Below are positions 9,480 to 29,059 of a stretch of DNA of 35,031 nucleotides, in pieces (the first letter of the stretch is position 1; every line of letters begins with the position of its first letter). A program made the position numbers and the translations under genes. The notes beneath the pieces were generated by a model. That model was not told the origin of the DNA. It saw nothing but the letters and a program-made list of their open reading frames with translations, and did no database searches. The stretch is from contig JAHEGN010000019.1 in the NCBI GenBank assembly GCA_024645085.1, positions 1 to 35,031 on the forward strand, written 5' to 3'. Origin of the DNA: Rhodobiaceae bacterium (GTDB taxonomy: Bacteria > Pseudomonadota > Alphaproteobacteria > RS24).

Positions 9480-11189
9480 CTACATAGAGAATAGCAACAG
9501 CAGCAAGAGGGCGAAGACGGCGAGGAAAATACCAGCCGCAGCTCCAGTGCTGGCAACGCCGGACACTAATCCGGTTTGCTGGCTGGCCCGTTCGCCGACG
9601 TAAAGACCATCCATCACCAGTTTTTTGGTCTGCCCTAAAGCGGCAAACCAGACAGAAAGAATGGGCCGCGCAATGGCCATGGTCAGACGCGGCAGAAGGC
9701 GGCGCAAGAACCAATCTGTGTTGAGCACAGTGGAGTCAATCTCTGGCGGATAAAGCCCGCGCACCATTAAGAACACAAAGGCCAGAATAGCGAATAATAG
9801 CAATTGCATTTCGCCCAGCACATGGCCGGCATCCCACACATTATAATCGACCGCATAGGGCAACAGCCCGTAAAGCAATTGCGGCGCCACGCCAATGGCA
9901 ATGCACAAGCCAGCGGCAATGCCCATGGCAATGAGCATATTCACCGGTGCTTCTTTAACCTCGAATTTGCGGTCATGGCCGAAGAAGGCGAAATACGGAA
10001 TTTTAATACCCGAATGTTCAAGCACGCCAGCTGAGGCAAAGATTAAAATCATCCAGACCACGAAATAGCCATCCTTGGCGACACTGCCAATGGTCAGCGA
10101 TTTGGTGACAAAGCCACTGAACAGCGGGAAGGAGGAAATCGATACGGCGCCAATAATACAGAAAATCATGGTCAGCGGCATGCGTTTCCACAGCCCACCC
10201 AATTCGCTGGCTTTGGCGGTGCCTGTGCGGTGCAATACCGCGCCCATGCTCATGAACAGCAAGGCTTTATAAATAATATGGGCAAAGGCGTGCGATACGG
10301 TGCCATTGATCGCCAATTCACTACCAATGCCGACGCCAACGACCATAAAGCCGAGCTGATTGTTCAACGAAAAGGCCAAAACCCGTCGCAGGTCATTCTC
10401 AATCACCGCAAAGAATACGGGGAATAAGGTCATCACCGCGCCAATCCAGATAAGAATCTCTGTGCCCGCGAAACACAAGGCCAGCATGTAAATCGCCAAT
10501 TTTGTGGTGAAGGCCGAGAGAATGACCGTGCCGGTAACGCTGGCCTCTGGATAGGCGTCTTGCAGCCAGCCATTGAGGAAGGGGAAGGCAGCTTTAATGC
10601 CAAAGGCCAGCAGAATGAGGCCGCCGGCCAGAGTTGATGCGTCCAGCGCTTGCACGCTGAGGCCTTGGCCGCTGTGCCATAAAATCACCGCGCCGGCCAA
10701 TAAAATGACGCCGGAACTGACTTGCATCAGCAAATAGCGCATGGCAGCGGCAAAACTGCGCTCGCTGCGGCTGATTAAAATCAAAAATACCGATGTGAAA
10801 GCGGTGAGTTCCCAATAGATAAACAGGGTGACGAAATCGCCAGCGAATAAGGCGGCAATGGCGGCACCTGCATAGGCCAAGCCAGCGGTTGCTGTGGTGC
10901 GCACATTTTCGTGCATGGCGTAAATCACATTAAGCGCAGCGGCAATATGGAACACTAGCGCAAACGGTCTGGTGATGGCATCGGCGCGCACCAATATGAG
11001 GTCGAGCCCCGCCAATTGGGTGGTCATATGCACGCCCGGTGCAATTCCCCAACACAGCCAAGCCGATAGGGCGATAACCGCCAACATCCAAATTTGCCGT
11101 AGTGCATGAGGCAGAATTGGCACCAGCACGGCACCAAACACCATCAATAAACCGGGGATTTGCAACAATGACGGCAGCAGACTATTCAT
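9480..11189 (-). CDS. Mrp-type antiporter subunit D paralogue, third copy (NuoL/MrpD-like)
   Basis: Polytopic membrane protein of the proton-conducting subunit family shared by Mrp antiporters and respiratory complex I. From the chosen start it has 569 residues, the longest of the three D-type subunits here. The channel residues are conserved by eye: Glu127 in FIYWELTAF, Lys199 in FGIKAAFPF, Lys230 in FTTKLAIY and Lys308 in HIIYKALLF. The frame extends six codons upstream, but ATG at 11189 has AGGAGA six bases before it and overlaps the preceding small gene by eight bases, typical of coupling. The extra C-terminal length holds additional membrane helices and a loop (YVGERASQQTG). It is the last gene of the operon; which ion it carries is unknown. 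Confidence 0.9.
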   Translation of the reverse strand: MNSLLPSLLQIPGLLMVFGAVLVPILPHALRQIWMLAVIALSAWLCWGIAPGVHMTTQLAGLDLILVRADAITRPFALVFHIAAALNVIYAMHENVRTTATAGLAYAGAAIAALFAGDFVTLFIYWELTAFTSVFLILISRSERSFAAAMRYLLMQVSSGVILLAGAVILWHSGQGLSVQALDASTLAGGLILLAFGIKAAFPFLNGWLQDAYPEASVTGTVILSAFTTKLAIYMLALCFAGTEILIWIGAVMTLFPVFFAVIENDLRRVLAFSLNNQLGFMVVGVGIGSELAINGTVSHAFAHIIYKALLFMSMGAVLHRTGTAKASELGGLWKRMPLTMIFCIIGAVSISSFPLFSGFVTKSLTIGSVAKDGYFVVWMILIFASAGVLEHSGIKIPYFAFFGHDRKFEVKEAPVNMLIAMGIAAGLCIAIGVAPQLLYGLLPYAVDYNVWDAGHVLGEMQLLLFAILAFVFLMVRGLYPPEIDSTVLNTDWFLRRLLPRLTMAIARPILSVWFAALGQTKKLVMDGLYVGERASQQTGLVSGVASTGAAAGIFLAVFALLLLLLFSM

Positions 11190-11442
11190 GATCGTCTCCT
11201 GCATCATAATAATCTGGCGCTCGCATGATTAATTTGCGCAGGCCAATACCGCCGACCACGACAATGATAAAGGCAATGAAGCCATAGGCGGCAAAAAACA
11301 TTGGCCGTCCTTCAAGCGCAAAATAAGCGTGGCGATGAATGACAAATTCCAGAACCGTCAGGCCAAAGCAGATAATGCAAAGGGCGATGATAAAGCGCTT
11401 GGCGGCTGGGCTGATTTCGGGTTTTTCAGAAGAATGTGACAT
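11182..11442 (-). CDS. small two-helix membrane protein of the antiporter operon
   Basis: An 86-residue protein with a short polar start (MSHSSEKPEISPAAK), a hydrophobic helix at about 16-36, a second at about 46-68, and an acidic tail ending DAGDDHE. It lies between two D-type antiporter subunits, with three bases to the gene before and an eight-base overlap with the gene after, so it is almost certainly translated as part of the operon. I do not recognise a named family and it has no counterpart among the seven standard Mrp subunits. It may be an accessory or assembly subunit; this is inference from position only. Confidence 0.75.
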   Translation of the reverse strand: MSHSSEKPEISPAAKRFIIALCIICFGLTVLEFVIHRHAYFALEGRPMFFAAYGFIAFIIVVVGGIGLRKLIMRAPDYYDAGDDHE

Positions 11443-11445
11443 GGC

Positions 11446-12897
11446 TTACCCGCTAAAGTTCAGAATGAAAAAATCAACGCTGAAGAACAGCAATATTGAT
11501 ATCAGCGCAGTGATGCACAGCGGCGCCACACAAGCCCAAGGCGCTTCGGCGTAACCGCCCTCGGCGACAGAACCGGCTTTGGCGGGAGCGAAAAACCCAC
11601 GCAATATAATTTCACCGAGATAGACAAGGTTCAATAGCGACGACACCATTAAAACCACAAGCACCAGCATATGTTGGCCGTCCAGCGCCCCGCCCATCAG
11701 CATGAATTTCGACCATGCCCCGCCCAAAGGTGGCACACCAATAATCGACAAAGCGGCCAAGGCAAAGGCGCCATAGGTAAGCGGCATGCGTCGCCCAAGA
11801 CCATCCATATCTTTGATATCGCTGAGGTGATGGGCGACATAAATCGCACCGGCGCAGAAGAACAGCGTAATTTTGCCGGCCGCATGTGTGGCTATATGCA
11901 AGGCTGCGCCGGAGGCAGCTAAGGGCGACGCCAGCGCCGCGCCGAGCACAATATAACCAAGCTGGCTGACCGTTGAATAGGCTAAGCGGGCTTTCAAATT
12001 GGTTTTGCGCAAAGCAACAATAGAGGCCGCCAGAATAGAGAAGCTGGCAACAATAATCAGCCATTCGCTGGCGCCGGTTGAGCTTAAAAAATCGAGGCCG
12101 AAAATGTAAATCGCTACTTTCAAAACGGTAAACACGCCCGCCTTTACCACCGCCACAGCATGCAATAAAGCGCTGACCGGGGTCGGCGCCACCATGGCCG
12201 CTGGCAACCAGCGGTGCAACGGCATGAGTGCCGCCTTGCCAATGCCGAAAGCGAATAAGCCGAGCAAAAAGGGCACGTAAATCGGGTCAATTTTACCGGC
12301 TAAAATACCACCGGCTGTGAAGTCCAGCGTGCCGGCAATCACCCAAACGCCTATGACGCCAAACAGTAAAAACACCACTGAGCTGGCCACCAATATGCCG
12401 AGATAGACGCGGCCTGCCTTGCGCGCATCCTCAGTGCCCTTATGGGTGACCAATGGATAGGTCGAGAAGGTCAGAATTTCATAGAATACGAAAAGCGTCA
12501 GCAAATTGCCCGATAGGGCAATCGCCATAGCGGCGTGAATGGCAATAGCATAGAAGAACATAAAGCGGGTTTGATTGTCTTCATGGGCGCCGCGCAAATA
12601 GCCAATCGTATAGAGCGTCGCCAATGGCCATAGGCAGCCAGCAACCAAGGCAAATAACAGCCCCAGAGGCTCCGGCGTGAAGCTGATGGACAGGCTTGGC
12701 GTCATTGCCAATAGCGTCAGGCTGGTGCCATCAGCGCCACGCGCAAAAAATTCAATCGCGCAGGCGGCGGTGAGCAGGCCAATCACTACCGCTTGCCCAT
12801 CGCGTAAATTCGGCCATTTGCGCAGCACTAAAACGCCAAGCGACGCCATCAACGGTAAGCCGAGCAGAGCATAGATTAATGTTTCAGAGTGAAGCAT
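11446..12897 (-). CDS. Mrp-type antiporter subunit D paralogue, second copy
   Basis: A 483-residue polytopic protein of the MrpD/NuoL/NuoM/NuoN family. Conserved channel residues are visible: Glu140 in FVFYEILTFS, Lys221 in GIGKAALMPLHRW, Lys252 in VVKAGVF and Lys342 in AAGKITLFF. The PLHRWLPAAMVAPTPVSALLHA stretch is close to complex I subunits NuoL and NuoM. Its ATG overlaps the preceding D-type gene by a single base (TAATG), so translation is probably coupled. Together with its two paralogues it would give the complex three proton channels. It may take the place of the N-terminal half of MrpA, which is missing from this operon. Confidence 0.92.
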   Translation of the reverse strand: MLHSETLIYALLGLPLMASLGVLVLRKWPNLRDGQAVVIGLLTAACAIEFFARGADGTSLTLLAMTPSLSISFTPEPLGLLFALVAGCLWPLATLYTIGYLRGAHEDNQTRFMFFYAIAIHAAMAIALSGNLLTLFVFYEILTFSTYPLVTHKGTEDARKAGRVYLGILVASSVVFLLFGVIGVWVIAGTLDFTAGGILAGKIDPIYVPFLLGLFAFGIGKAALMPLHRWLPAAMVAPTPVSALLHAVAVVKAGVFTVLKVAIYIFGLDFLSSTGASEWLIIVASFSILAASIVALRKTNLKARLAYSTVSQLGYIVLGAALASPLAASGAALHIATHAAGKITLFFCAGAIYVAHHLSDIKDMDGLGRRMPLTYGAFALAALSIIGVPPLGGAWSKFMLMGGALDGQHMLVLVVLMVSSLLNLVYLGEIILRGFFAPAKAGSVAEGGYAEAPWACVAPLCITALISILLFFSVDFFILNFSG

Positions 12898-20945: not shown

Positions 20946-20975
20946 GTGAAATCTGAAAACCAGCCCGAGGACATA

Positions 20976-23900
20976 ATGAGCTATAAATCGAGACTACTAA
21001 CAACGGCATTTGTTTTGCCTGTATTGATGACCAGTCTTCCGGCTTTTGCTCTAGATGTCCAAACCGCCGTTACTGCCGAAGAGGCGACGCTGAATAGTGC
21101 CGTTGATGCCGATGGCCTTCATTCGATTTCATCTGCGGGCAGTGTCACCATTACTGGGCCGACGGTCAGCGGTGCAGCTGTCGTGATTAATCACAGCGAT
21201 GCGGTTGATGTGTCGATTAATGGCACGGTCAGCGTGGTTGATGAAAACTCTGACGGCACCATTAAGTATGACACCTCCGGTGAATATGGCGTGTGGGTTA
21301 AAGACCCGTTCAGCGGTGATTTAATACTCGGGGCCAGTGCTTCGATTCTGTTGCTTGATAGTTTGGCGCGTGTCGACAATGATGAAGATGGTATTTTAGA
21401 CGGTATTACGCTCGACCAGAATACAGCTGATACGGGCGATGATGTGTTCAGTGCTACAAATTTCGCTCAGGATTCGGGGCGTATTGGTTTGTTCATCGAG
21501 CAAGCGATGAACGGCAATTTGTTGAGCGTGGCGGGCTCGCGAATAGCTGTCACCTCGGATAATGGCTTGGGTCTTTATTTAGACAGTGCACTTACCGGCA
21601 ATATTGATTTGCGCGGCACCATTAGTGTTGTTGGCTCGCAGCTTGGTGCCTCCGGCTATACAGCAGCCGTGTATATTGACCCGCTGGCGTCGATAACCGG
21701 TCGCTATATTCAAGCTGGTACATTGTCGGCCACAGGCATTGGTGCCTCTGGCCTCATTGTTGAGGGCGGTATTACCGGCGGCCTTCAAATCGAAGGCTCC
21801 ATCACCTCAACCGGCTATCAAACAACTGCTGTGAATAATAGAGGCCTTTTGGCGGCTGATAGTGAGACCAATCTTGACGCCAATGAGCTGCAACAGGGCG
21901 GCTCGGCTGTCGTGTTAAAAGGCGATATCACCCAAGGCATCTTGATTAACGGGCCGATAAATTCGAGACGTTCAGCCGATGAAACGACCAGCCTGACGGC
22001 GATTACTACGGCGCGCGGCAATGATGAGGCGGTCAATGCACTGAAAACTCAGCCTTATCATTTTGATGAAAACCGTGGCACGGGGCGCATTACCACCTAT
22101 GGTTCAGCCCCAGCTCTCGCAATATCAACTGGCACTTTTGGTCAAATCGTCGAAGGCTTTGCAGATACGCGAAACGATGACAATGACACGTCGACGGCGT
22201 TTAGCGGCGCGACATTTTCCTATAGTAATTCATTCATCAATCGCGGGGCAATTACAGCGAATGGCTGGAATGACGGCATTTCGGCCACGGCAGTTTCGGT
22301 TGGCAATGGCGCGATATTAGACGGCGGCTTTTTGAATGCCGGCACGATTTCAGCAACCGCCTATAATAATAACGCAACGGCCATTTCATTGGAATCATCG
22401 TCTTTCGGCACTGTAAGCTTGGCATCAGATATTTTCATCAATGAGGGCACAATTTCGGCAACGGTGACCAGCAACACCAAAACCGATGCGACAGCAACCG
22501 GCAGCAGCTATGCGGCAAAAGCAGTTGCGCTGTCAGCCTCTACTGCTTTGCCAAACGCCGCCGTGTTCGTTAACCGCGGCGCCGTTTATGCCAGTTCAAC
22601 GCATATTGATGGTACGACAAGCGTCAGTGGTGATAAGGCGATTGCCTATGATTTCTCGACCTATAGCGGTGACGCGCTCAGCGGCGGCATTACCTTGCGG
22701 CAATCCTTGCGAGAAAATGACCAATTGAACAATTCCAACCAATATTTGGGCAATGGTGATCTTGATCTCGATGTGGCTGGCGATACCGATGCCGACGACA
22801 ATGCGATTGGTGACGGTTTTGTGACCTCGCAAGATGTTCAGGTGCCAGCCATTATCGGTGATGTTTATTTCTCAGCCTATAACGATACGCTAGATCTGAC
22901 TTCTGGCACTATGTTCTCCAATGTCTATTTTGGCCAGGGCAATGACGTCTTTAACATCAGCAATCCTGAAGCCAACCCGATTGCCACAAGCACTTATGAA
23001 AAACCCTATACGGTTTTCGTCGGTGCGTTAACATCATCTGGCGGCACGTTGGACGTGAATATGTCAGGCCGCTCGCGGATGATTTTCAGCAATCAGGAAG
23101 TCATTGATGAAGGCGTTAATCTTAATAGCCTATCAATCGCTGATGAAGCCGACATTGGCTTTGTGGTTGATAGCACGGTCGCTACACCGAACACGGCTTT
23201 GGTCAATGTGCAAAATTTAACCATAAGCGGCACAGATTTCAAAATCTCGCCAGCGCTTGAAAACATTGTAGCAGAAGGTTATTCGCAGCGGTTTATTCAA
23301 ACGGCCAGTGATTTGTCTTCTTATTCGGCGACCATTAATGACCATTTAAGTGGCAATCAGCCGTTCATTTATAATGTCAGTCTGGCGATTGAAGATATTG
23401 TGGCTAATGGCGACCAGGCGATTACTGCCACATTTGCTATTAAAACCGCTACTGAGCTGGGTCTGAACACCACGCAGGCACCGTCTTTGAATGCCGTGCT
23501 GAGCCATTTCGGTCGTCATTCGGCACTTGAAACGGCGCTGGCAGCGATTGACACCCAAGCTAATTTCGCCACTGCCTATGATCAAATTCTGCCGCATTAT
23601 GGTGATGGCACCATGCGCCAATTGTCGATGTTGGCCACGTCAGCCAATGGCTCGGTGAGCCAACACATGCAATTAGTCAAAGCTGGTGGACGCAGTGGCG
23701 GCGAGGGTTGGTTGCAGCAATTTGGAGATTACCGTAAGCAAGATGCCACAACTGAGGGCGGCACATTGCGTGGCGATAGTTATTCCATCGCTTATGGCTA
23801 TGACGCGCCTGTTTTGGGACTTGATGCTCTGGGTCTTTTCACCCAATTGAGCTTTTCCAATGTTGATGAGAAAACATCGTCAGTCAATGAAGTCAAGTCT

Positions 23901-24539
23901 GAGGGCTGGGCTATTGGCGCCTATTTGGCCCATGAGATTGGGCCTATTGGGATTGAACTGACGGCGCAAGGCGGCAATGTCAAATTTGACTCGGAACGGA
24001 TTGCACGTGTCGGCGATGCTAGCGATATTTTGCGCGATGGTTGGGATGGCACAAGCTTTGCCGCATCGGCCAAACTTGCCGTGCCTATCTTGACCGGTCG
24101 CCACAGTTTGCAGGCTGAATTTGGCACAGACTTCTTCTCGCTCGAACAAGATGCGCATACAGAAACTTCTGTCTATGACATGAACCTGGGTGTGCATGTT
24201 GGCAGCGCCACCTCTGAATTGACCACCAATCATTTCGGTCTGCGCGGACAGGCAAATTATGGCGGTGGGTCGCCAGTTGCCGTGACGTGGTCGCCAAATT
24301 ATTATATTGGCTATCAGTCGGTCGGTACTTATCAGCCATTTTCTGCCAATGTGAATTTCGTTGGGTCGAATGAGAGTTTTGTTATGAAAACTGCCACTGA
24401 GGTAGCCGACCAGACCAATATTGGTTTCGGCGTGTCGGCGCATAATGATTATTTTGCTGTTGAGCTGAGCTATCGCGCTGCCTTTGGTGACGACGTCAAT
24501 GTTCAGGGCGGCGGCTTGGCAATCCGACTGAAATTCTAG
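20976..24539 (+). CDS. large autotransporter (type V secretion) protein
   Basis: A 1187-residue surface or secreted protein. Residues 1-25 form a signal peptide (positive start, hydrophobic core, LPAFA cleavage site). The passenger, about 26-850, is rich in Ser, Thr, Asn, Gly and short alternating hydrophobics with repeated INRGAI, LNAGTISA and FINEGTISA type strands, as in beta-helix passengers. A linker helix with AYDQILPHYGDGTMRQL precedes a barrel from about 906, beginning near GEGWLQQFGDYRK and ending LAIRLKF with terminal Phe, the signal for outer-membrane insertion. Two Asp-rich loops are noted separately. GTG at 20946 opens the frame, but ATG at 20976 starts the signal peptide and has GAGGA before it. 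Function of the passenger (adhesin, enzyme) is unknown; I see no protease motif. Confidence 0.9.
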   Translation: MSYKSRLLTTAFVLPVLMTSLPAFALDVQTAVTAEEATLNSAVDADGLHSISSAGSVTITGPTVSGAAVVINHSDAVDVSINGTVSVVDENSDGTIKYDTSGEYGVWVKDPFSGDLILGASASILLLDSLARVDNDEDGILDGITLDQNTADTGDDVFSATNFAQDSGRIGLFIEQAMNGNLLSVAGSRIAVTSDNGLGLYLDSALTGNIDLRGTISVVGSQLGASGYTAAVYIDPLASITGRYIQAGTLSATGIGASGLIVEGGITGGLQIEGSITSTGYQTTAVNNRGLLAADSETNLDANELQQGGSAVVLKGDITQGILINGPINSRRSADETTSLTAITTARGNDEAVNALKTQPYHFDENRGTGRITTYGSAPALAISTGTFGQIVEGFADTRNDDNDTSTAFSGATFSYSNSFINRGAITANGWNDGISATAVSVGNGAILDGGFLNAGTISATAYNNNATAISLESSSFGTVSLASDIFINEGTISATVTSNTKTDATATGSSYAAKAVALSASTALPNAAVFVNRGAVYASSTHIDGTTSVSGDKAIAYDFSTYSGDALSGGITLRQSLRENDQLNNSNQYLGNGDLDLDVAGDTDADDNAIGDGFVTSQDVQVPAIIGDVYFSAYNDTLDLTSGTMFSNVYFGQGNDVFNISNPEANPIATSTYEKPYTVFVGALTSSGGTLDVNMSGRSRMIFSNQEVIDEGVNLNSLSIADEADIGFVVDSTVATPNTALVNVQNLTISGTDFKISPALENIVAEGYSQRFIQTASDLSSYSATINDHLSGNQPFIYNVSLAIEDIVANGDQAITATFAIKTATELGLNTTQAPSLNAVLSHFGRHSALETALAAIDTQANFATAYDQILPHYGDGTMRQLSMLATSANGSVSQHMQLVKAGGRSGGEGWLQQFGDYRKQDATTEGGTLRGDSYSIAYGYDAPVLGLDALGLFTQLSFSNVDEKTSSVNEVKSEGWAIGAYLAHEIGPIGIELTAQGGNVKFDSERIARVGDASDILRDGWDGTSFAASAKLAVPILTGRHSLQAEFGTDFFSLEQDAHTETSVYDMNLGVHVGSATSELTTNHFGLRGQANYGGGSPVAVTWSPNYYIGYQSVGTYQPFSANVNFVGSNESFVMKTATEVADQTNIGFGVSAHNDYFAVELSYRAAFGDDVNVQGGGLAIRLKF

Positions 24540-26948: not shown

Positions 26949-27306
<358 letters not shown>

Positions 27307-27317
27307 ATTTCAAATAT

Positions 27318-27410: not shown

Positions 27411-27477
27411 ATCCCATTTTATCCCAGACAAATTCGTTGACTTCCCATCAAATCCCATGCTATCCCAAGGTATCCCA
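27411..27477 (-). promoter_or_regulatory. six-box putative MraZ operator
   Basis: On the minus strand there are six boxes with core TGGGA(T/A), at plus-strand 27411-27416, 27421-27426, 27442-27447, 27452-27457, 27462-27467 and 27472-27477. Start-to-start spacing is 10, 21, 10, 10 and 10 bases, so all boxes face the same side of the helix. MraZ in Escherichia coli is known to bind TGGG-type direct repeats with ten-base spacing upstream of its own gene. The position 48 bases before mraZ fits autoregulation; the orientation relative to the gene was not compared with known operators. Confidence 0.75.
27437..27466 (+). promoter_or_regulatory. candidate mraZ/dcw promoter inside the box array
   Basis: TTGACT at 27437-27442 and TATCCC at 27461-27466 are 18 bases apart. 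The -10 is imperfect. If real, the third to fifth boxes lie across the promoter, as expected for repression by MraZ. The leader downstream can form a five-pair stem (27486-27490 with 27501-27505). Confidence 0.35.
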
Positions 27478-27524: not shown

Positions 27525-28016
27525 ATGACCAGATTCATGTCCACAATTGAGGGCAAGATTGACGCCAAAGGGCGCGTCTCTGTTCCGGCTGTCTTTCGTT
27601 CGGCAATTCTGGCTCAAAATGGGGGTGCCGCAGGGCCTCATTCGATTTTCGTTTATCCTTCCTTCACCGAAATGACGATTGAGGGCGGCGGCGTTAGCCT
27701 CAGTGCCTATTACAATCAAATGGTCGACCGTTTGGACCCATTCACCGAAGAATATGAAGCTTTGGCTTCGGTTCTTTTCGGCGATAGTCATACATTAACC
27801 TTTGACACGGATGGTCGGGTATCATTGCCCGAGGCGCTGCTGCATCACGCCCAAATTGACAAAGCGGTTTGTTTTGTCGGCATGGGGAGCAAGTTCCGCA
27901 TTTGGAACCCAGAAGCCTATGCGGATTATCGTGCCAAGGCGCGAGCCCGAGCATTAGAAGACCGCAGTTTGCTCAAATCCTTATCAGGCCCACCCCCGGG
28001 CGGGAGCTCACATTGA
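27525..28016 (+). CDS. mraZ: MraZ transcriptional regulator of the dcw cluster
   Basis: A 163-residue DNA-binding protein that forms rings and controls transcription of the division and cell-wall cluster. Two AbrB-like halves are seen: STIEGKIDAKGRVSVPAVFRSAI near residues 6-28 and HTLTFDTDGRVSLPEALLHHA near 88-108; both carry the conserved DxxGR(V)S(L)P pattern. A strong GGAGGA site lies before ATG at 27525. The six TGGG boxes upstream suggest autoregulation. Its stop overlaps the TTG start of rsmH by two bases. It is slightly longer than the 152-residue E. coli protein, with a polar C-terminal tail. Confidence 0.96.
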   Translation: MTRFMSTIEGKIDAKGRVSVPAVFRSAILAQNGGAAGPHSIFVYPSFTEMTIEGGGVSLSAYYNQMVDRLDPFTEEYEALASVLFGDSHTLTFDTDGRVSLPEALLHHAQIDKAVCFVGMGSKFRIWNPEAYADYRAKARARALEDRSLLKSLSGPPPGGSSH

Positions 28017-29059
28017 CTAGTCGGGGCCATGTGACGCAAGCGCATGACGTGACCCCGTCTCCGTCGTCCCCCTCTGCGCCTCATATTCCAGTTTTACTCT
28101 CAGAAGTTGCCACCGCAATGGCACCGCGCGACGGTGGCGTTTATGTCGATGGCACATTTGGCGCTGGCGGCTATACACAAAAAATTCTGTCCACTGCTGA
28201 CTGCACCGTGCTGGCGATTGATCGCGACCCCACCGCCTTTGCTTTCGCCGCGCCGCTGAAAGATCAATTCGGCGATCGGCTCGTGTGTCTGGAAGGCTGC
28301 TTCGGTGATATGGCTGAATTGGTGGCCACTGCCGGCTATCAAACCGTTGATGGGGTGATGTTGGATTTGGGGGTTTCCTCCATGCAGCTTGATCAGGCTG
28401 AACGCGGGTTTTCATTCATGCGCGACGGGCCGCTGGATATGCGGATGAGCCGCGAGGGCATGTCAGCGCAAGAACTGCTGGAAACCGCCGAGGCTGATTT
28501 GCTGGCTGATATTTTGTTTGTTTATGGCGAGGAGCGCCGTGCGCGCGCCATCGCCCGCGCCATTGTCGAAAAACGCGCCAGTCAAGCCCTAACTCGCACA
28601 AGCCAATTGGCCGATTTGATTTGCGGTGTTCTGGGCCAGCCGCGTGCTAAACAGGCGCATCCGGCGACGCGGAGTTTTCAAGCCTTGCGGATTTATCTCA
28701 ATGATGAGCTCGGTGAATTGGTCAGCGGTTTGCAGGCGGCTGAGCAGATTTTGCACCCACAAGGTCGCCTTGCTGTGGTCACTTTCCATTCGTTGGAAGA
28801 CCGAATTGTGAAGCAATTTTTTGCCCCGCGTACCGGTCGCGCGGGTCGGCCGTCGCGTCACCAGCCAGATATTGTCGGCCCACAAGCCAGCTTCAGCGAG
28901 CTTGATAAGCGCAGCACCAAAGCCCGACCAGAAGAAATTGCCGCCAATCCGCGCGCTCGTTCAGCGCGGTTACGGGCGGCGCAACGCACCACCGCGCCAG
29001 CCTATCCGGCGACCACTGATCTGATGCCGGCGCGGGCGCCGCAGGCGGTGTCTTCATGA
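28013..29059 (+). CDS. rsmH: 16S rRNA (cytosine1402-N4)-methyltransferase RsmH
   Basis: S-adenosylmethionine-dependent enzyme that methylates C1402 in the ribosomal P site (old name MraW). Seen: HIPVLLSEV, the SAM loop VDGTFGAGGYTQ near residues 46-57, VMLDLGVSSMQLD, GFSFMRDGPLDMRM, ATRSFQALRIYLNDELGEL and VVTFHSLEDRIVKQFF; these are the ordered family blocks. The frame is open back to 27869 inside mraZ, but that part is not family-like. I chose TTG at 28013, which has GGGAG six bases upstream and overlaps the mraZ stop; GTG at 28031 is the alternative. Length is 348 residues. The C-terminus overlaps ftsL by four bases. Confidence 0.95.
   Translation: MTSRGHVTQAHDVTPSPSSPSAPHIPVLLSEVATAMAPRDGGVYVDGTFGAGGYTQKILSTADCTVLAIDRDPTAFAFAAPLKDQFGDRLVCLEGCFGDMAELVATAGYQTVDGVMLDLGVSSMQLDQAERGFSFMRDGPLDMRMSREGMSAQELLETAEADLLADILFVYGEERRARAIARAIVEKRASQALTRTSQLADLICGVLGQPRAKQAHPATRSFQALRIYLNDELGELVSGLQAAEQILHPQGRLAVVTFHSLEDRIVKQFFAPRTGRAGRPSRHQPDIVGPQASFSELDKRSTKARPEEIAANPRARSARLRAAQRTTAPAYPATTDLMPARAPQAVSS

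Follow-up and report, generated by a model that had tools for sequence, protein, structure and literature searches.

A putative MraZ operator interlaced with the mraZ/dcw promoter in a Rhodobiaceae bacterium and in other Alphaproteobacteria

We consider it highly likely that six phased boxes upstream of mraZ in a Rhodobiaceae bacterium form an MraZ operator fused with the mraZ/dcw promoter, which MraZ would occlude when bound. The boxes lie in a stretch of 35,031 nucleotides that was analysed as a whole (the window). Comparison with other Alphaproteobacteria points to a composite element in which the dcw promoter and the MraZ operator would share bases, and which appears to have been kept across the class upstream of mraZ.

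The presumed regulator and the next gene of the dcw cluster follow the array directly:

27525..28016, plus strand: mraZ, 163 aa, presumed regulator (PF02381, E 1.8e-19)
28013..29059, plus strand: rsmH (mraW), next dcw gene

After rsmH come a 107-aa open reading frame without a Pfam match, in what we take to be the usual place of ftsL, and then ftsI, murE and murF, which were named from their Pfam domains and order. Proteins of the MraZ family consist of two AbrB-like halves with D-x-x-G-R motifs. The window MraZ carries DAKGR and DTDGR, and both halves were matched, which places it in the family. Its predicted structure (mean pLDDT of 88) matched the entries 1n0e, 1n0f, 9r4j, 9qlg, and 9sz7 with Z values of 16.8 to 17.7, and the MraZ proteins of Mycoplasma genitalium and M. 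pneumoniae are among these structures. The nearest MraZ among the named genomes was 96% identical and came from a genome labelled Rhodobiaceae. Further relatives, at 60 to 67%, were labelled Rhodobiaceae, PS1 clade, or Alphaproteobacteria. Judging by these labels, the window may belong to the PS1 clade.

On its other side, the array is bordered by rnpB, the RNase P RNA gene (26952-27307; RF00010, 333 bits). In the sampled alphaproteobacterial loci, rnpB precedes mraZ in 10 of 20 cases, nine of them on the same strand, and the rnpB–mraZ neighbourhood is therefore probably old. Farther upstream, the window holds a 1197-aa autotransporter-like protein (20946-24539; PF03797), located directly after the gene of an AMP-binding enzyme. 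Two proton-antiporter subunits (PF00361) are encoded on the minus strand at 9480-12897; small minus-strand frames adjoin them up to about 16900 and may form an Mrp-type antiporter operon together with them.

The initial annotation had listed six minus-strand TGGGA(T/A) boxes upstream of mraZ, and all of them were recovered at the same positions and with the same steps. The hexamers start at 27411, 27421, 27442, 27452, 27462, and 27472, yielding steps of 10, 21, 10, 10, and 10 bases; the third reads TGGGAA and the other five TGGGAT. Placed on the slots of the class-wide element described below, the array and the promoter predicted within it comprise the following features, where family arrays are those of the window's family:

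27411..27416, minus strand: putative distal MraZ box 1 (slot -21), TGGGAT; exact box in 5/21 family arrays
27421..27426, minus strand: putative distal MraZ box 2 (slot -11), TGGGAT; exact box in 9/21 family arrays
27434..27437, minus strand: lost box, slot A (TCGT on the plus strand); the slot holds CCCA in 66/166 arrays
27437..27442, plus strand: predicted -35, TTGACT; one base upstream of the usual class position
27442..27447, minus strand: putative proximal box B, TGGGAA, in the spacer; CCC and CCCA each in 21/21 family arrays
27452..27457, minus strand: putative proximal box C, TGGGAT, in the spacer; CCC in 20/21 and CCCA in 18/21 family arrays
27458..27459, plus strand: TG of the predicted extended -10 (TGnTAT); TG in 21/21 family and 114/134 non-redundant arrays
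27461..27466, plus strand: predicted -10, TATCCC; TATCCC in 21/21 family and 93/134 non-redundant arrays
27462..27467, minus strand: putative proximal box D, TGGGAT, overlapping the -10; CCC in 21/21 and CCCA in 16/21 family arrays
27472..27477, minus strand: putative proximal box E, TGGGAT, over the predicted start; CCC in 21/21 and CCCA in 19/21 family arrays

On this class scale, boxes occupy slots -21, -11, B, C, D, and E of the window array, and slot A is lost. The 21-base step corresponds to the stretch across the -35 plus this one dead slot.

The word TGGGAW is not enriched over the whole window (21 observed against 39.3 expected); what is unusual about these boxes is their phased clustering, not their overall number. 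The window was compared with 1000 first-order Markov shuffles of itself. When 4-mer boxes were chained by steps of 10 or 21 bases, the longest chain had six boxes in the real sequence and no shuffle exceeded four, a length reached once. For runs of 6-mer boxes at exact 10-base steps, the values were four and at most two. A search of the 1.7-Mb assembly with the four-box pattern at zero or one mismatch returned the window array as the sole match, and thus no second array of this quality, as might mark another MraZ target, was found there. Two further places, on contigs C28 and C46, appeared at two mismatches. With up to three mismatches, the assembly gave 29 matches, three of them within the window array, as compared with 10 for the pattern read backwards. 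These weak matches exceed the control, and the C28 and C46 places are candidate further MraZ targets.

A 44-base motif fitted to 173 mraZ upstream regions, CCCATTGACNCCCATANAATCCCATGNTATCCCATANNNTCCCA, reads as a promoter of sigma70 type (TTGAC-17-TATCCC with TGn) through which boxes run at 10-bp intervals. Slot A adjoins the -35, B and C take up the spacer, the CCC of D is also that of the -10, and E lies over the likely start. The 10-bp phase resides in CCCA on the coding strand: in 138 class mraZ upstream regions, pairs of CCCA peaked at 10 (284 pairs), 20 (187), and 30 (106) bases, and TGGG on the coding strand of the same regions showed no 10-base peak (9 pairs at 10).

To carry the claim, we relied on a held-out comparison, because counts within the fitted sample are inflated by the fitting. 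A model derived from 35 regions, comprising the window's family and other relatives, was applied to 138 other alphaproteobacterial regions, which represent the better-scoring MraZ proteins among the matches listed. It exceeded 12 bits in 129 of the 138 regions, in none of their 138 reverse complements, and in none of 138 shuffles. Within the sample, 168 of the 173 regions lay above the 99th percentile of the null and 166 above 12 bits. The same procedure fitted to shuffled sequences brought 43 of 173 above 12 bits; fitted to reverse complements, it brought 167 of 173, presumably by locking onto the array from the other side. All 80 named loci also passed the motif threshold, but these were found by protein similarity and the threshold was lenient, so that they count as supporting evidence only. 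The seven regions at or below 12 bits were L188, L042, L166, L194, L236, L206, and L049. The boxes had decayed in L206, and L049 retained three CCCA at 10 bp.

The initial annotation had placed a candidate promoter inside the array. The class-wide comparison bears this out, in that the composite element appears to contain a sigma70-type promoter interlaced with the boxes. The window version is TTGACT-18-TATCCC with TG, whereas the fitted class consensus is TTGAC-17-TATCCC. The predicted -10 begins 18 bases after the -35 and has its CCC in common with box D, and the first base pair of box B overlaps the end of the predicted -35. The upstream-shifted -35 and the 18-base spacer were common to the congener G001 and the five members of genus g3 that were examined. 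A generic sigma70 scan of the array detected no promoter, because TATCCC is a poor -10. Weak by consensus, this -10 draws its support from conservation: TATCCC together with TG occurs in every one of the 21 family arrays. Deduced from the -10, the transcription start would lie at about 27473, giving mraZ a predicted leader of about 52 bases. Across the 80 named loci, the predicted leaders ranged from 12 to 352 bases. Outside Rhodobacteraceae, leaders derived from mapped starts measure at most 70 bases, Sinorhizobium meliloti (170) excepted, according to excerpts of PMC5089854. The longest predicted leaders exceed most of the reported ones, which counts against a promoter fused with the operator.

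Conservation was followed in a family set of 25 genomes, of which 22 have MraZ and 21 contributed an array. All four proximal slots are kept with their phase, at least 20 of the 21 arrays holding CCC in each of them. The distal slots are occupied by an exact box in fewer than half of the arrays, as listed above. The total number of boxes varies even within the genus, where exact boxes number six (G000), five (G001), and five (G002) and the upstream ones occupy differing slots. Among relatives, then, the proximal four boxes and their phase have persisted and the box number has not. The proposed division into four proximal and two distal operator parts is supported in part, since the proximal slots are conserved and the distal boxes vary in number and phase. 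Six boxes is a high count but not a unique one among the sampled arrays: at least six exact boxes were chained in 21 of 166 arrays when steps of 10, 11, 20, 21, 30, and 31 were allowed.

The extra base between the core and the distal boxes recurs in other arrays. Among 134 non-redundant arrays, 17 have a box at -21 and two have one at -20. We rejected a one-base shift of the flanking boxes as a general rule, because only this slot gave a clear difference; the other counts were 6 against 9 for -11 and -10, 7 against 4 for +51 and +50, and 5 against 3 for +61 and +60. A joint drift of the boxes of one array was weakly positive (89 box pairs with the same deviation against 74 ± 7.7 in shuffles, with a maximum of 97 in 500 shuffles) and was therefore not used as evidence.

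The array accompanies MraZ across the class. Exact four-box arrays were present in 126 of 386 class genomes, and in 7 of 386 when the pattern was read backwards; given this control, chance will account for a small part of the 126. All 126 fell among the 324 genomes with a detected MraZ, and none among the 62 without (Fisher p = 1.7e-12, ignoring relatedness). Of 30 sampled four-box loci, 28 had an mraZ reading frame, the exceptions being L081 and L082. We also inspected 30 regions upstream of rsmH from genomes scored as lacking MraZ. The motif was missing from 26 of them, and the four above threshold scored 41.7, 14.6, 2.7, and 2.6 bits. A divergent mraZ was looked for in six of the 30 loci, the higher-scoring ones, and three of the four regions above threshold contain one, which means that at least three of the 62 genomes scored as MraZ-less do carry a divergent mraZ. 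The remaining region, L286 (14.6 bits), comes from a genome without a detected mraZ, G143, and retains a decayed composite promoter upstream of rsmH. TTGAC and TAT persist in it, but the -10 is TATTTT in place of TATCCC and no box is left in the last two slots. This decay pattern is as expected for the loss of a repressor.

The array thus has at least three direct repeats with a TGGG- or GTG-type core at 10-bp steps, lies upstream of mraZ and the dcw cluster, and is conserved in relatives and associated with MraZ, three of the marks by which an MraZ operator is recognized; the fourth would be binding by MraZ. It is very probably the MraZ operator that the initial annotation proposed, as the element is found class-wide before mraZ and is rare where MraZ was undetected.

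Under the fused-operator model, two boxes would lie in the promoter spacer, one on the CCC of the -10, one over the start, and two a short way upstream of the -35. Abundant MraZ would occupy the four proximal boxes in phase with its ring and exclude RNA polymerase from the -35 to +1 region. MraZ and the polymerase would be rivals for these bases, and mraZ and the dcw genes would come under negative feedback. At low MraZ levels, this stretch could work as a normal promoter, with its good -35 and its extended -10. The distal pair would probably be an auxiliary site for further subunits or for a second ring. A larger number of boxes might, as the initial annotation suggested, engage more ring subunits simultaneously and make repression stronger. 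For this model, the element, its conservation, its association with MraZ, and the variability of the distal boxes were shown by comparing sequences; binding, occlusion, feedback, and the start are what we infer. Autorepression by promoter occlusion is very likely, on account of the position of the boxes and of the MraZ repression reported for Escherichia coli and M. genitalium. Four boxes per ring are plausible, because M. genitalium MraZ is represented together with promoter DNA in two cryo-EM entries (9r4j and 9sz7), the latter titled 'in complex with 4 box promoter'.

A more far-reaching version of the model seems rather unlikely to us. It holds that the alphaproteobacterial dcw promoter and MraZ operator were inherited together as a single element, which runs inverted to the form of other Pseudomonadota and whose boxes, as many as seven on a 10-bp grid, would allow the promoter DNA to be partly wrapped around the MraZ ring. 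The extra base at -21 would then show where two half-rings, or two rings, meet. On this view, MraZ would control the cluster by winding the entire promoter around itself, as opposed to sitting after the -10 in E. coli.

The sign of the regulation is not guaranteed, because an activating MraZ has been described for mycoplasmas (PMC7761207, excerpt). MraZ might accordingly act mainly as an activator, or in both directions, with the distal boxes as the activating site and the proximal boxes as the repressing one. The distal boxes do lie upstream of the -35, which is the usual position for an activator. The conserved boxes, however, overlap the spacer, the -10, and the predicted start, as would fit the exclusion of polymerase, and many relatives lack the distal boxes or have them in other slots; we regard an activating role as improbable. 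Still less probable, at odds that we put very low, is that another regulator reads the boxes, such as the response regulators NtrX or CenR. NtrX binds upstream of mraZ in Rhodobacter sphaeroides, although its site as given in the excerpt of PMC7240162, GCAn9TGC, contains no TGGGA repeat. CenR was enriched at R. sphaeroides mraZ in ChIP-seq, there without its motif and as a possible artefact according to the authors (PMC9275681, excerpt). Against any such regulator, the array accompanies MraZ, and MraZ boxes elsewhere share the form of a 10-bp repeat.

We give hardly any credence to the idea that the repeats arose by accident as tandem repeats or belong to an RNA element at the 3′ end of rnpB. 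The rnpB gene ends about 100 bases upstream of the array and, as noted, often precedes mraZ in the class. Nevertheless, nine of the ten sampled loci without an rnpB match still exceeded 12 bits (all but L042), and the 10-bp phase across the class is carried by CCCA, not by TGGG. As for a tandem-repeat origin, the spacers between the boxes differ from one another, and the boxes are conserved where the spacers are variable. An MraZ operator fused with the dcw promoter remains our preferred reading.

Several loci depart from the usual form. In L042 (G138), the array runs at 11-bp steps and has five boxes by eye. The boxes of L236/L336 (G231) read CCTAT, and the MraZ of this genome carries DAKFR in place of the D-x-KGR of 30 aligned proteins; DAKFR also occurs in L340 (G141), of the same family. 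It is possible that operator and MraZ changed together. ACCAT boxes were seen in two genomes of about 0.9 Mb, G192 and G087, and the low scorers L166 and L194 have ACCAT boxes. Family f72, represented by L188/L334 (G282) and L341 (G352), has forward GTGG boxes, as in the other Pseudomonadota sampled. Each of these variants is a single lineage and proves nothing alone.

The regulator MraZ is widely conserved in bacteria, and its operator is understood in few species only. A class-wide element offers a prediction of the start site and the operator for the division cluster of many Alphaproteobacteria. The inversion and the natural variants (11-bp spacing, altered box letters, forward orientation, lost MraZ) allow features of the ring and the array to be compared for their part in repression. 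RegPrecise may list alphaproteobacterial MraZ sites. In the titles and abstract openings of the open-licence papers that our searches listed, we found no description of MraZ boxes in Alphaproteobacteria. The R. sphaeroides promoter PUpsM is likewise an alphaproteobacterial dcw promoter upstream of mraZ, but it has a 268-base leader with an sRNA (PMC5089854, excerpt); neither 'MraZ binding' nor 'TGGG' occurs in the main text of that paper, and its section 8 makes no mention of boxes.

The E. coli mraZ promoter is said, in work by Eraso from 2014, to carry three TGGGN repeats. It shares with the window the 10-bp direct repeats upstream of mraZ, the same gene cluster, and reported repression by MraZ, which acts on the dcw operon through the upstream repeat (PMC7761207, excerpt). 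MraZ of M. genitalium has also been reported as a repressor. In E. coli, however, it is the coding strand that reads TGGG, and the boxes, at -43, -33, and -23 relative to the start codon, follow the -10, whereas the window boxes are on the minus strand and span the -35 to +1. The initial annotation's comparison with E. coli passes over these differences of strand and position. The window array is therefore not of the E. coli type, and the suggestion that it simply extends the array known from E. coli is not supported as worded: it is inverted and covers the promoter instead of following it.

The same contrast was obtained with 70 loci of other Pseudomonadota, a sample that favours better-scoring MraZ proteins. 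GTGG pairs at 10 bases numbered 114 on the coding strand against 13 on the other, and 59 of the 70 loci had at least three GTG at 10-bp steps, on the strand opposite to the alphaproteobacterial boxes. Of these 59 loci, 39 had a recognizable promoter-like sequence; in 38 of those, the first box started no more than 2 bases ahead of the end of the -10 or 18 bases beyond it. The alphaproteobacterial model exceeded 12 bits on neither strand of any of the 70 loci. Judged from these comparisons, the putative alphaproteobacterial operator is inverted relative to that of other Pseudomonadota and is placed over the core promoter.

Burkholderia cenocepacia PmraBc, of which MraZ binds a 250-bp fragment in gel shifts, has four 7-base repeats at 3-base spacing that overlap the start site; these are downstream of the -10 and were found through a GTG motif (PMC7761207, excerpt). 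The window box, in contrast, is ATGGGA on the template side, and the boxes cover the -35 to the start. The Mycoplasma operator, (AAAGTGKN3)3, resembles the window array in its 10-bp repeats and differs in the box sequence (PMC5282649, excerpt). Taken together, the window array is very probably an inverted, promoter-overlapping form of the already known MraZ operator.
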